DNA from: an uncultured Acholeplasmatales bacterium
GTDB lineage: Bacteria > Bacillota_I > Bacilli_A > Acholeplasmatales > UBA5453
Assembly: GCA_927433595.1 (NCBI GenBank)
Contig: CAKMJY010000012.1
Coordinates: 1 to 51,984 of the forward strand
Length of the DNA: 51,984 nucleotides
Direction: 5' to 3'
The stretch's first letter is position 1, and each line of letters begins with the position of its first letter. Position numbers and translations under genes: made by a program. The notes below the pieces were generated by a model. The model worked only from the letters and a program-made list of their open reading frames with translations, was not told the origin of the DNA and did not search any database. Shown here in pieces: positions 2,516 through 41,407 of the stretch.

Positions 2516-4325
2516 AGTTATCTTTTTGTTCATACTGAAGTTGATATAACTTATAGTATAATCCTTTTTGTTTTAATAGATCTTGGTGCTTGCCTGACTC
2601 TTTGATTTCACCTTGTTGCATGACGATGATTTTATCGGCATGTTGGATGGTTGAAAGCCTGTGGGCAACAACTAACATCGTCGATAGCTGCATCATTTTC
2701 TCTAATGAGGTTTGAATGAGCGCTTCTGTTTCAGAATCGATGTTCGCAGTTGCTTCATCTAAGATCATCACAGTCGGTTTATAGGAGAGTGCCCTAGCGA
2801 AACTCAAAAGTTGTCTTTGACCAGTTGAGAAGTTATTCCCACGTTCTCTGACGATATGATCATAGCCATCATCTAGTTTGTTAATGAAGGTATCAACACC
2901 GACATATTGACTAGACTCTATCATCTCTGCTTTCGTGATTGCTTCATTATGCAGGGTAATATTGGATTCAATCGACCCTGAGAATAAGAAGACATCTTGT
3001 GGCATTTGTCCAATGTGCTTTCTTAAGCTATCGCGTTTGATTTTTTTGATATCGATGCCATCAATTAAGATTTGACCTTTTTGGATCTCATAGTTTCTCA
3101 CGATTAAACTCATGATGGTCGTTTTACCAGACCCAGTAGCCCCAACAAAGGCAACGGTATCATTCGGATTGACTTTGAATGAGACATCTTTTAATACCCA
3201 TTCGTTTTCAATGTATGAAAACCAAACGTTTTTAAATTCGATTTCACCTTTAAAATCGGTTAGTTCAATGGCATCTACTGCATCTTCAATTTCTGGTAAG
3301 GTATCCAAGACATCAAAAATCTTTTCACTTGAAGCCAGTGCACTTTGTAAGACATTGAACTGTTCTGCTAATTGTTGAACCGGTTCAAATAAACTTTGTG
3401 CATATTGATACATCATAACCAGCAAGCTCACTTTTAATAGAATAACTTCTGGTGAGGCATTATTTGCTAAAAGCGTGAGGATATCATTACCAATATAGTA
3501 GATGACGATGATGGTTGCTGCCATCGAGAATAGATACATTAAAGGTCTATAGATGGCAAATACCATTAATTCGTTAAAATAAGCATTTCTGAGTTTTTTA
3601 CTTTGATCAATAAAGGCTAACTTTTTCTTTTCTTCTTGATTGAATATTTGTGTTAACTTCATACCGGATAAGTTTTCGGATAAAAACGCATTGATATTTG
3701 ATACCCTGTTTCTAACCATACGGTATGACTTTCGGGATAGTTTTCTGAATAAGAATGTGGATAATATCACCAATGGGAATATCAACGACATAAATAGCGT
3801 TGACTTATAATCAATAACTAACATGATGACATAATAGGTCAACATCATCAAGGTATTCCTTAATAAGGTGACGATTACACTTGAATACATTTCCGATAAC
3901 GTGTTGGTATCGTTGGTTACTCTGGTCACTAACTTGCCAACTGGGATTTGATTCAATTGGTTATTGGATAAAGTATGGATGTGACCAAACACGTCCATTC
4001 TAATGCCATAAACGATTTTTTGACCAGCCCGTTGAAGTAACCAGTTTTGATAATAAATAATGATAGAAACAACACCAATGATCCCTAAGAATAAAATGGA
4101 TAGCCATAAGAATTGATACATCTTATCTGAGATACTACCGGTATCGCCTATGATTCTAATCGATAACCCAATTAAAATCGGACCAAGTGCAGATACGGCA
4201 ACATCGCCCAACATTAATAGAGCGGACAATAAGAAATCTTTTGTAAATGGTTTGGCATACCTAACTAATCTAGCAATGATCGTTCTATCTGCCTTGGTTA
4301 TGGTTTGTTCTTGGAAGTCTTTCAT
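2514..4325 (-). CDS. Heterodimeric ABC exporter subunit, BmrD/YheH type
   Basis: This is a half-transporter of 603 residues: six membrane helices (about 20-330) followed by an ATPase domain. Walker A GATGSGKTT, Q-loop QMPQDVFLFSG, signature STGQRQ, Walker B MILDEATANID with the catalytic Glu, and H-loop VAHRLST are all present. Its partner directly upstream has Asp in place of that Glu, the pattern of heterodimeric exporters such as BmrC/BmrD and LmrC/LmrD, where only one site is fully active. A longer frame exists, but I chose the ATG at 4325 because it has a GGAGGG site 5 nt upstream and overlaps the partner's TGA by 4 bp. Expected substrates are drugs or lipids; the sequence does not tell which. 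Confidence 0.9.
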   Translation of the reverse strand: MKDFQEQTITKADRTIIARLVRYAKPFTKDFLLSALLMLGDVAVSALGPILIGLSIRIIGDTGSISDKMYQFLWLSILFLGIIGVVSIIIYYQNWLLQRAGQKIVYGIRMDVFGHIHTLSNNQLNQIPVGKLVTRVTNDTNTLSEMYSSVIVTLLRNTLMMLTYYVIMLVIDYKSTLFMSLIFPLVILSTFLFRKLSRKSYRMVRNRVSNINAFLSENLSGMKLTQIFNQEEKKKLAFIDQSKKLRNAYFNELMVFAIYRPLMYLFSMAATIIVIYYIGNDILTLLANNASPEVILLKVSLLVMMYQYAQSLFEPVQQLAEQFNVLQSALASSEKIFDVLDTLPEIEDAVDAIELTDFKGEIEFKNVWFSYIENEWVLKDVSFKVNPNDTVAFVGATGSGKTTIMSLIVRNYEIQKGQILIDGIDIKKIKRDSLRKHIGQMPQDVFLFSGSIESNITLHNEAITKAEMIESSQYVGVDTFINKLDDGYDHIVRERGNNFSTGQRQLLSFARALSYKPTVMILDEATANIDSETEALIQTSLEKMMQLSTMLVVAHRLSTIQHADKIIVMQQGEIKESGKHQDLLKQKGLYYKLYQLQYEQKDN

Positions 4326-38533: not shown

Positions 38534-38560
38534 TAGAAAAAAAGCACGACATTCGTGCTT
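38534..38560 (-). terminator. Terminator of the Na/Pi cotransporter gene
   Basis: AAGCACGA / TCGTGCTT, an 8-bp stem with a 3-base loop, then TTTTTTT on the minus strand; it overlaps the stop codon. The uvrB-pepF unit follows about 40 bp later. Confidence 0.85.
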
Positions 38561-40259
38561 AATTTAGGCTATTATCTTCTGTATCGAGTCTTGAGACACG
38601 TAGTGGGTTGATAATATTTTCTGCGATATTTTTCAAGTGATCGCCAATGCGTTCCATGTTAGATAAGATTTCGACATAGTTTGTATTAGATGTAAACGTA
38701 AATAAGCCTTCTTTTAAACGTTCAACATAGTTAAATCTGAATTTTTCTTGAAGTTTATCGGTTAAGTCTTCATACTCAATGGCTAACTTAGCTTTCTCAA
38801 CATCGTTATAGATAAATGATGCCAATGTCACATCAAACATTTCTTCCAATACTTTATAGAAATGGCTCAAATCTTCCACTGCTGCATCTGTTAAGGTTTG
38901 GTTCTCATCATAACGATTTTTGAAGAATCCGACTAAATTGGTTAGGTGGTCTCCGATACGCTCAAAGTCTCTAATCGTATCTAAGTCTCTGGATAATCGT
39001 TTAGAGTCTTTTTCAGATAACTCATTGTTTCTAACTAAGGTAATCATATAGTCATGTAGACGTTTATCATAATCGTCTAATGTGCGTTCAAGCTTATCTG
39101 CTTTTTCTTCCACATCTGCTGTATTTTGGAAGCTATAGCGCTTCGTTAATAAGAAATATTGTTTGGATAAATCACCCATTCTATTGATGCCTTTTTTAAC
39201 ATAATAAAGGGCTAATGACGGTGTTTCTTGAAGTAAGGATTCATTGAAGATGACTTGTAGTTCATCTGTGTATGGTTTATCCTTAATTAGCCATTTCGAA
39301 ATCCTAATCATGTGGTCCATGAAATAGAATAATAAAATCGATGTGACGATGTTCATAAACATATGCGCAAATGCCAAGGTTGACATAGAGAATGGTTCTA
39401 AGAATGTTAATTCTACCCATGCAACTAGATGGTAGTAAGGCCATAAGAAGATTAAGAATACAACCGTCCCAAACACATTAAACATGATGTGGATGGATGA
39501 GAAACGTTTGGCTTCTAGTGACCCATTAATAGCTGCGATAACGCTTGTAATGGTTGTCCCGATATTGGCACCTAAAATCAATGGTAATGCACCAATGAGT
39601 GAGAATGTCACGACACCACTTTCAGCATTCAAGTGATACAGTTTTTGAATGATCCCGATTGCGGCCGATGAACTCTGAACGAATGCCGTAAATAATGTCC
39701 CAAACGATACACCAAATAACCAGAAAGCCCCATTGGATGTGTCTGAAAATAAGAAGAATAAATCTTGGACCATATCATTTGCGACAATGGTTTTTAACCC
39801 ATCACCCATGACTTCTAGTCCAAAGAATATTAACCCGAAGCCCAATAAAGTTGTCCCAAGGTTTCTAATCAACTTACGTTTAAAGAAGAATAACATCACG
39901 ACTGCGATGAAAATCATCAATAGCGCATAATCGGCAATTGGTAAACCGATTAAAATGGAAGTCATCGTGGTCCCGATGTTTGCCCCAAAAACCATACCTA
40001 CTGCCTGTTTTAATGTCATCAATCCAGCGCTAACTAATCCGATTACTAAAACCGTTGTACCAGAAGAGGTTTGAAGTAAAACGGTAATCAAAAACCCCAT
40101 CAAAATGGCTTTTAGTGGTGTATTGGTTGTCTTTTCAATCAACATGCGCATTTTATTGCCAGCTGAACGTTTTAACCCTTCACCCATTAAATCGATACCA
40201 TAAAGGAATAACCCCAATCCACCTAGTACCATTAAAATATTCATGGTCATTTCATTCAT
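38559..40259 (-). CDS. Na+/phosphate cotransporter, NptA/PhoU-domain type
   Basis: A 566-residue membrane protein of the Na/Pi cotransporter family (PF02690). Two repeated transport motifs are visible: LLQTSSGTTVLVIGL in the first half and FVQSSSAAIGI in the second (the QSS/QTS signature). GANIGTT occurs in both repeats. About nine membrane helices end near residue 340, and the C-terminal 220 residues are PhoU-like helical bundles with RDFERIGDHLTNL and NMERIGDHLKNI motifs. It imports phosphate with Na+. The frame opens at 40292; ATG 40259 has AAGGGGAT upstream. Expression must pass the hairpin at 40291-40318. Confidence 0.9.
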   Translation of the reverse strand: MNEMTMNILMVLGGLGLFLYGIDLMGEGLKRSAGNKMRMLIEKTTNTPLKAILMGFLITVLLQTSSGTTVLVIGLVSAGLMTLKQAVGMVFGANIGTTMTSILIGLPIADYALLMIFIAVVMLFFFKRKLIRNLGTTLLGFGLIFFGLEVMGDGLKTIVANDMVQDLFFLFSDTSNGAFWLFGVSFGTLFTAFVQSSSAAIGIIQKLYHLNAESGVVTFSLIGALPLILGANIGTTITSVIAAINGSLEAKRFSSIHIMFNVFGTVVFLIFLWPYYHLVAWVELTFLEPFSMSTLAFAHMFMNIVTSILLFYFMDHMIRISKWLIKDKPYTDELQVIFNESLLQETPSLALYYVKKGINRMGDLSKQYFLLTKRYSFQNTADVEEKADKLERTLDDYDKRLHDYMITLVRNNELSEKDSKRLSRDLDTIRDFERIGDHLTNLVGFFKNRYDENQTLTDAAVEDLSHFYKVLEEMFDVTLASFIYNDVEKAKLAIEYEDLTDKLQEKFRFNYVERLKEGLFTFTSNTNYVEILSNMERIGDHLKNIAENIINPLRVSRLDTEDNSLN

Positions 40260-40290
40260 ATAATAATCCCCTTTTTCTAAAATAAAAATC

Positions 40291-40318
40291 AAAAAAAGAT
40301 GCTAAAAAATAGCACCTT
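40291..40318 (-). terminator. Terminator or attenuator between pfkA and the Na/Pi gene
   Basis: AAGGTGCTA / TAGCATCTT, a 9-bp stem with a 5-base loop and one G-U pair, then TTTTTTT on the minus strand. Only about 30 bp separate it from the Na/Pi start codon, too few for a promoter, so the transporter gene must be read through it. Confidence 0.75.
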
Positions 40319-40394
40319 TTAAAGTCCCCAAACTTAAACACGACAGCTCTTTTAAAGCTTTAATATTCAATATTGTGTTTGAATATTGTTTCAT
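40302..40394 (-). CDS. Possible 30-codon leader peptide
   Basis: An ATG frame of 30 codons ending in TAG, starting MKQYSNTILN. It has a very good AGGTGATC site 3-5 nt upstream and ends inside the terminator-like hairpin. The peptide has no run of one amino acid, so classical amino-acid attenuation is not indicated. A 9-bp hairpin (AATATTCAA / TTGAATATT) lies within its first codons at about 40362-40387. It could be a true leader or a chance frame. Confidence 0.35.
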   Translation of the reverse strand: MKQYSNTILNIKALKELSCLSLGTLKGAIF

Positions 40395-40422
40395 ATGATC
40401 ACCTAGACGATAATGTTAGAAT

Positions 40423-41373
40423 TTATTGAAGTTTGCTAACCAATTGGTATAGTTCTTCTGTTGATTCATTGTTCATAGAAAGTACTTCTTTAAATGGTAA
40501 GTAAATCATCTTTGAATTCATTTCGCCGATGGCAACCCCAGTGATACCTCTATTGATTAAGTCAATGGCATATGCACCCATTCTGCCAGCTAGGATTCTG
40601 TCCTGTGCGGTTGGTGAACCACCTCTTTGGACATAACCTAAGACAGTTGCGCGGCATGCAAATCCACTCTTTTCGGTTATTTCTTCTGCTAAATCATGTA
40701 CGTTTGTAATGTTTTCTGTAATCACGATGATGGCATTTCTTCTGCCTTCACTCTTGTGTACTTTTAGTTTTTCAATCAAGGTTGGTTTATCCAGTGGATG
40801 GTCTTTCGTGATGATGAATTCAGCCCCACAGCTTAATCCAGCCATGACTGCTAAATCGCCACAATCTCTACCCATGGTTTCAACCAGTGAACAACGTTGA
40901 TGTGAAGATGCGGTGTCTCTGAGTTTATCGATGGCATCGACGATTGTATTGAGCGCTGTATGAAAACCAATCGTATAATCGGTTCCAGCTAAATCATTAT
41001 CGATGGTCCCAGGAATCCCAATGACTGGAAACCCCATTTCGGTTAAGGCTTGTGCACCTCTATAAGTCCCATCCCCACCAATTGCCACCAAACAATCAAT
41101 GCCGAGCTTTTTCATATTCGAAACAGCTTGTTCCCTGACACTTAATTCTTTAAATTCAGGTAACCTTGCGGTACCTAAAATTGTGCCACCTTTTTGAAGG
41201 ATTTCTGAAACGCTCTTTCTGGTCATTTTTTCAAAATTACCATTAACCAACCCTTGATAGCCATCCATGACGCCATAAACTTCGTGTCCACTATTGAGAC
41301 CTGCTCTAACGACTGCACGGATTGCAGGGTTCATACCTGGGGCATCGCCACCAGAAGTTAATACTGCTATTTT
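40423..41373 (-). CDS. pfkA: 6-phosphofructokinase, ATP-dependent
   Basis: A 316-residue ATP-PFK (319 in E. coli) that commits fructose 6-phosphate to glycolysis. Seen: LTSGGDAPGMN, IGGDGTYRGA with Gly after GGD as in ATP enzymes, PGTIDNDL with the catalytic Asp, ETMGRDCGDL and GYVQRGGSPTAQDR. The longest frame starts at ATG 41397, but that ATG lies at the -10 box (41399-41404) and would be upstream of the expected transcript start. The TTG at 41373 has GGGGTGG 5 nt before it and gives the family N-terminus (KIAVLTSGGD), so I use it. Confidence 0.93.
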   Translation of the reverse strand, partial: KIAVLTSGGDAPGMNPAIRAVVRAGLNSGHEVYGVMDGYQGLVNGNFEKMTRKSVSEILQKGGTILGTARLPEFKELSVREQAVSNMKKLGIDCLVAIGGDGTYRGAQALTEMGFPVIGIPGTIDNDLAGTDYTIGFHTALNTIVDAIDKLRDTASSHQRCSLVETMGRDCGDLAVMAGLSCGAEFIITKDHPLDKPTLIEKLKVHKSEGRRNAIIVITENITNVHDLAEEITEKSGFACRATVLGYVQRGGSPTAQDRILAGRMGAYAIDLINRGITGVAIGEMNSKMIYLPFKEVLSMNNESTEELYQLVSKLQ

Positions 41374-41398
41374 CAATATACCACCCCAAATCGCCATT

Positions 41399-41407
41399 AT
41401 TATATCA
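41399..41407 (-). promoter_or_regulatory. Extended -10 promoter of pfkA
   Basis: TGATATAAT on the minus strand. Transcription would begin about 41392, which rules out the ATG at 41397 and supports the TTG start at 41373. Confidence 0.7.

Follow-up and report, generated by a model that had tools for sequence, protein, structure and literature searches.

The window, namely the whole stretch of 51,984 nucleotides from an uncultured Acholeplasmatales bacterium, carries on its minus strand the gene pfkA followed by the Shine-Dalgarno (SD) sequence AGGTGATC, a 30-codon open reading frame (ORF), an intrinsic terminator that contains the stop codon of this ORF, and a gene for a Na/Pi cotransporter. 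The individual features, in the direction of transcription, are as follows.

41462-41451, minus strand: cre-like GAAAACGATTTC in the divergent gap between pfkA and the PPi-PFK gene; recurs in the genus loci
41399..41404, minus strand: -10 box TATAAT with TG extension (TGATATAAT) of the pfkA promoter, from the sequence and five genus loci
40423..41376, minus strand: pfkA, ATP-dependent 6-phosphofructokinase, from the ORF and Pfam/NCBIfam
40404-40397, minus strand: SD sequence AGGTGATC of the short ORF; AGGTGA in all four distinct genus leaders
40302..40394, minus strand: short ORF of 30 codons encoding MKQYSNTILNIKALKELSCLSLGTLKGAIF, with ATG at 40394 and stop codon TAG at 40304-40302 in the terminator
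40362..40387, minus strand: 9-bp A+T-rich hairpin within the short ORF, from sequence and fold (arms AATATTCAA at 40387-40379 and TTGAATATT at 40370-40362, loop of 8)
40294..40320, minus strand: intrinsic terminator stem-loop AAAAGGTGCTATTTTTTAGCATCTTTT, 11 pairs, loop of 5
40293-40284, minus strand: T-rich tail of the terminator
38559..40259, minus strand: Na/Pi cotransporter gene, 566 aa, with C-terminal PhoU domains, from the ORF and domain matches

The element GAAAACGATTTC is what we take to be a cre-like site. Judging from the position of the -10 box and from relatives, pfkA is likely to start at TTG 41376 rather than at ATG 41397, the start of the longest ORF, because the latter sits directly behind the -10 box. 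The same box is probably the promoter of the whole pfkA-transporter unit as well. The transporter ATG at 40259 lies 34 nt past the terminator stem. The SD, the 30-codon frame, the 9-bp hairpin and the stop-containing terminator that a preliminary description had placed between pfkA and the transporter gene are all present there on the minus strand, and its remark that the leader matches no known riboswitch agrees with Rfam, which yields no match across the whole window at gathering thresholds. Searches of Pfam and NCBIfam likewise yield no match to the short ORF. The leader is single-copy in its own genome, and its fold over the whole length is only modestly better than those of shuffled sequences (z -2.23).

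Recurrence of the leader within the genus

The search covered 61 genomes, the window's own genome (G000) included; completeness is 86% for G000, 82% for G006 and 64% for G004. A full-length transporter orthologue, 67-76% identical, is encoded by five of the six same-genus genomes, and the 64% complete G004 carries neither this orthologue nor pfkA. Four of the six, namely G001, G002, G003 and G006, have pfkA directly upstream of the transporter gene in the same layout. The leaders of G001 and G006 are identical, and there are thus four distinct leaders, the window's included. The terminator pattern AGGTGCT-N4-8-AGCATCTTTTT occurs once each in the window's genome and in these four, always at this locus, and also in 2 of the 56 remaining genomes.

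The four distinct leaders have kept the SD, the ATG, an open frame up to the terminator, and the terminator itself. AGGTGA and an ATG follow the pfkA stop codon in all four, the ATG beginning 16-29 nt past it, and of the three frames the ATG frame alone is open to the stem in every case. Fourfold-degenerate sites of both flanking genes differ by 0.58-0.75 between the four distinct loci, a divergence near saturation, so that the kept SD, ATG and terminator do not merely reflect recent ancestry. The hairpin encloses the stop codon in three of the leaders (G000, G001/G006 and G003), and in G002 the stop codon begins 6 nt ahead of AGGTGCT. Of 2000 shuffles per leader, 339 (G000), 143 (G002), 527 (G001) and 721 (G003) likewise place the first stop at the stem; G001 and G003 do not count as independent, no single case is significant, and the three independent cases are jointly unlikely by chance.

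The peptides are MKQYSNTILNIKALKELSCLSLGTLKGAIF in G000, MILILTHSMNLIICSRES in G002, MTIHQTCLPMVHMIAYNDTRHSKKVLF in G001 and G006, and MTIHQSRLQPGHMIDHIDTRHSTKVLF in G003. Those of G000, G002 and G001/G003 bear no resemblance to one another, none is conserved and none contains a codon run; with such differences, and with no Pfam/NCBIfam match, a conserved leader peptide was rejected. Of the 145 columns in the G001/G003 leader alignment, 22 are substitutions and 3 are gaps; the changes within the frame are by eye nearly all amino-acid-changing, which gives no sign of selection on the peptide. The neighbouring DNA of this pair is equally conserved (44/404 differences upstream of pfkA and 5/60 behind the transporter gene), and hence the leader is not singled out. 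Identity of the G001 and G006 leaders was rejected as evidence of selection because their flanking noncoding DNA is near-identical too (3/404 and 0/60 differ).

G001 and G003 have in common a long, imperfect hairpin that is predicted to form around the start codon; one of its pairs is by eye changed on both sides, and the changes are mostly unpaired or pair-preserving, which, in two sequences, is no proof. The four distinct leaders, alignable as one pair only, are too few for covariation. The 9-bp hairpin is specific to the window's species and missing from the other genus leaders, and was ruled out as a conserved element. Conservation of the leader had been set beforehand as a test of the preliminary description: its layout is kept in the genus, but its sequence is not.

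Terminators, promoters and read-through

A survey of 400 kb of G001 took in 386 ORFs of at least 80 aa, 107 of which have a terminator no more than 120 nt from the stop codon. In 41 of these the stem starts before the stop codon is complete; it starts 0-5 nt after the codon in 23, 6-11 nt in 25, 12-20 nt in 7 and later in 11. Because 89 of the 107 gene-end terminators thus overlap or adjoin the stop codon, beginning before it or at most 11 nt after it, a stop codon inside a terminator is ordinary here, and was rejected as a sign of an attenuator. In the same 400 kb, 27 terminators lie 10-55 nt ahead of an ORF of at least 80 aa; gene starts were taken as the longest possible, and some of the ORFs behind these 27 have their true start further on. 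The leader terminators, at -8.4 to -11.8 kcal/mol against a median of -10.9 kcal/mol for the 107 gene-end terminators, are of ordinary predicted strength and not weak, which counts against a leaky terminator.

Co-directional gaps of 90-260 nt were also surveyed, 6 in the window and 67 in the G001 stretch. Short ORFs preceded by an SD occur in 7 of the 67 G001 gaps, most of those away from this locus being evident small genes or weak-SD frames; a strong-SD short ORF that is not an evident small gene and runs up to a terminator fewer than 55 nt ahead of the following gene was found at this locus only.

The 5' arm of the terminator is predicted to pair with upstream RNA with a probability of 0.76, 0.60, 0.50 and 0.47 in the four leaders, and this pairing is reached by 36, 106, 183 and 191 of 200 shuffles. 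With upstream pairing in no excess over shuffles, an antiterminator was rejected. The attenuator reading of the preliminary description is therefore largely weakened, and competing structures find no support: pairing of the 5' arm stays at shuffle level, the 9-bp hairpin is species-specific, the peptide is unconserved, and a stop codon in a terminator is common at ordinary genes here.

A TATAAT or TAAAAT box 18-110 nt before the transporter ATG is present in none of the five genus leaders. Such a box precedes the transporter gene in 63 of 86 surveyed loci, G005 of the same genus among them (the 86 are those with the locus or an upstream stretch, the excluded matches being mostly weaker or truncated). 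At the same genus loci pfkA and uvrB possess perfect TATAAT -10 boxes. By consensus boxes, no promoter can be recognised for the transporter gene itself, and its transcription should rely on read-through, in line with what had been claimed. The accompanying claim, that there is no room for a promoter behind the terminator, applies to this gap by consensus (0/5 leaders) but not as a general rule. The gap before uvrB holds a perfect extended -10 TGTATAAT (TG-TATAAT) at 38524-38519 on the minus strand, about 17 nt behind the transporter terminator stem, and a promoter can therefore fit such a gap. This box sits inside the palindrome CTATTATGTATAATAG, is kept in five of five genus loci and is possibly a regulated uvrB promoter. 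The gap between the terminator and the transporter gene contains weak TANNNT hexamers in four of five loci.

Several other leaders came to light in the survey. At about 1790-1985 of L153 (G034, another family), a cre-like site, TATGATATAAT and a 20-codon ORF with its stop codon in a terminator are followed 19 nt on by the transporter gene. Upstream of the transporter gene in L107 (G081) stand a TATGTTAAAAT box and a 19-codon ORF with the SD-like AGGAAAG and its stop codon in the terminator loop. A leader of about 170 nt following a common TATGATATAAT precedes the transporter gene in L098-L101 (G089, G088, G077 and G084), and blocks such as GGGATAAAGCGTGT are common to these four species. At gene start 33572 of G001:C2 (joined L154-L173), a terminator and a 'short ORF' resemble by eye a T-box antiterminator/terminator.

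Pyruvate kinase genes beside the transporter gene

A pyruvate kinase gene comes next after pfkA in many relatives. G005 has the order pfkA, a second pyruvate kinase gene (pyk2), a putative MFS-like gene recognised from reading its ORF, and the transporter gene; its genome carries two pyk genes, against a single one in each of G000-G004 and G006, and every one of the five short-ORF genomes lacks pyk2. In genus g18 it is pyk itself that comes before the transporter gene, and in G050 a terminator starts 3 nt after the pyk stop codon with the transporter gene 19 nt on. A pyruvate kinase gene also ends a few bases before the transporter gene (match at 3001) in L004 of Falcatimonas sp. MSJ-15, a member of the Lachnospiraceae, so this neighbourhood may be old.

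In genus g14, pyk2 precedes the transporter gene in 9 surveyed loci. Copy numbers of pyk were surveyed in 16 hand-picked genomes with completeness of 79-99%, 13 of them from g14 and representing part of that genus: the 6 of these 13 with pyk2 beside the transporter gene have two copies, and the 7 without it have one. Four of these seven (L103, L105, L108 and L109) show a MarR-family gene, TATAAT, a GCATC-GATGC terminator and the transporter gene in succession. The MarR-family gene (Pfam MarR_2) has counterparts of 42-44% identity ahead of pyk2 in G090 and G076; the GCATC-GATGC terminator resembles the one behind pyk2; and a cre-like AACGTTTT lies 43-45 nt before the TATAAT in three of the four, compared with 45 nt at pyk2 in G090 and G076. 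The g14 arrangement is a deletion scar, in which a pyk2 promoter has been fused to a pyk2-type terminator.

By its position, the short ORF of the window's genus probably stands where pyk2 was lost as well; position is the guide here because no pyk remnant is detectable in the ORF. Among 18 comparisons covering six short ORFs, no resemblance to pyk goes clearly beyond shuffles, the best being reached by 35 of 300. A resemblance of the G034 ORF to the C-terminus of pyruvate kinase, noticed by eye, is not significant (reached by 86 of 300 shuffles). The pyk2 terminator of G005 differs in sequence from the short-ORF terminators.

A proposed leaky-terminator unit and its known relatives

On balance we lean, with about even confidence, to a reading in which pfkA, a translated mini-cistron at pyk2's place and the transporter gene make up one transcription unit with an internal, leaky terminator. 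Polymerase would start at the pfkA promoter, much of it would halt at the internal terminator, and the read-through fraction alone would make transporter mRNA, so that transporter output would track pfkA transcription at a lower level. The mini-cistron most likely occupies the place from which pyk2 was deleted. The peptide itself would be irrelevant; since the start signal and the stop at the terminator are what is retained, any action should be exerted through the position of the ribosome. What the sequences show is the layout in five genomes with four distinct leaders, the lack of a box-like promoter and of an antiterminator, and where pyk2 is present or missing; translation of the short ORF, read-through, loss of pyk2 at this exact spot and an effect of ribosomes are steps that we infer.

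A good deal less probable is a terminator gated by translation in the manner of the Streptococcus gallolyticus pil1 leader. Ribosomes reaching the stop codon in the terminator would hold the hairpin open, and a well-translated frame would allow the transporter gene to be transcribed, which would otherwise be off. Retention of the SD, the ATG and the stop at the terminator with a varying peptide speaks for such gating, and part of the pil1 study reports the corresponding mutants, in which a leader stop within the terminator or 4 bp before it gives high expression and loss of the SD/ATG gives low expression (PMC3894217). A stop codon 5 bp before a terminator is likewise reported, in part of an Escherichia coli study, to cut termination from about 90% to less than 10% (PMC4824070), and the leader of G034, in another family, combines a promoter, a short ORF stopping in a terminator and a closely following transporter gene. 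However, the position of most G001 gene-end terminators at or just past the stop codon suggests that terminating ribosomes do not block termination in this genus. The same short distance is a published proxy for RNA polymerase outrunning ribosomes, marking uncoupled, runaway transcription in Bacillus subtilis in the account given by part of PMC7858274, and E. coli terminators lying no more than 100 bp into a coding region remain functional, again according to part of PMC4824070.

It is unlikely that the structure is simply a gene-end terminator of pfkA with a decaying remnant, in which case the short ORF would be due to chance and some weak or atypical promoter within the leader or the 34-nt gap would drive the transporter gene. 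The weak TANNNT hexamers in that gap, the SD-preceded short ORFs in other gaps of G001 and the uvrB promoter directly after a terminator would all suit this explanation, whereas the persistence of all three leader features (SD, ATG and open frame) across four loci whose fourfold sites are close to saturation argues against it, as do the perfect TATAAT boxes of pfkA and uvrB at loci whose transporter gene has none. A ligand- or codon-sensing attenuator, be it a riboswitch, a T-box or an amino-acid leader peptide, is very improbable. A structured leader, a terminator and an ORF are indeed present, and the G001/G003 hairpin with one pair changed on both sides could be cited in its favour; yet Rfam gives no match, no codon run occurs, neither peptide nor leader sequence is common to the genus, and antiterminator pairing does not rise above shuffles.

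A broader proposal, which we regard as doubtful, is that repeated deletion of pyk2 from glycolytic operons of this order fused start signals or promoters to a terminator ahead of the transporter gene and that the scars were kept as attenuators, in this genus as a content-free ORF with ribosome-gated read-through. If this were true, an attenuator could originate simply, by deletion of a gene with its start and terminator kept and without invention of a sensor, and phosphate import would be tied both to glycolytic transcription and to translation. Since the arrangement recurs ahead of a single transporter in two genera, such an origin would be testable through sister species with and without pyk2. 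The locus would also serve as a natural experiment on how ribosomes translating a short frame influence a terminator, if at all, in a lineage where gene ends suggest that polymerase outruns ribosomes.

The unit resembles operon-internal intrinsic terminators in that its terminator separates two co-directional genes, the second of which follows closely. Among those of G001 a long gene nearly always ends at the stem, whereas here it is a strong-SD short ORF, the only clear case. The E. coli pyrBI leader likewise has a short translated ORF ahead of a terminator. The pil1 leader, also from Bacillota, shares with this locus an SD, a short ORF, a stop codon in or just before an intrinsic terminator and a downstream gene reached by read-through, and the pil1 model, as set out in part of PMC3894217, treats the peptide sequence as irrelevant. 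In contrast, the pil1 leader is served by a promoter of its own and contains phase-variable GCAGA repeats, and the short ORF described here follows pfkA, is free of repeats and has no visible promoter of its own by consensus. The B. subtilis vmlR leader similarly places a short translated ORF before a terminator, but works by anti-antiterminator/antiterminator switching and drug-stalled ribosomes in the account of part of PMC9226507; such structures were not found here. Titles and abstracts on leader-peptide attenuation, attenuation in Acholeplasma, glycolytic and phosphate-cotransporter operons, and gene loss with attenuators do not describe this leader. The closest parallel for its history is the 'mobile attenuator' of Naville and Gautheret (2010, PMC2965389), in which the terminator at the 3' end of one gene comes to serve another gene as its 5' terminator. 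Mobile attenuators arrive by insertion elements or prophages, as described in part of that paper, whose section on exaptive scenarios does not treat gene deletion; here the intervening gene would have been deleted. Relative to known terminator-leader layouts, the new element would be this origin by gene loss.
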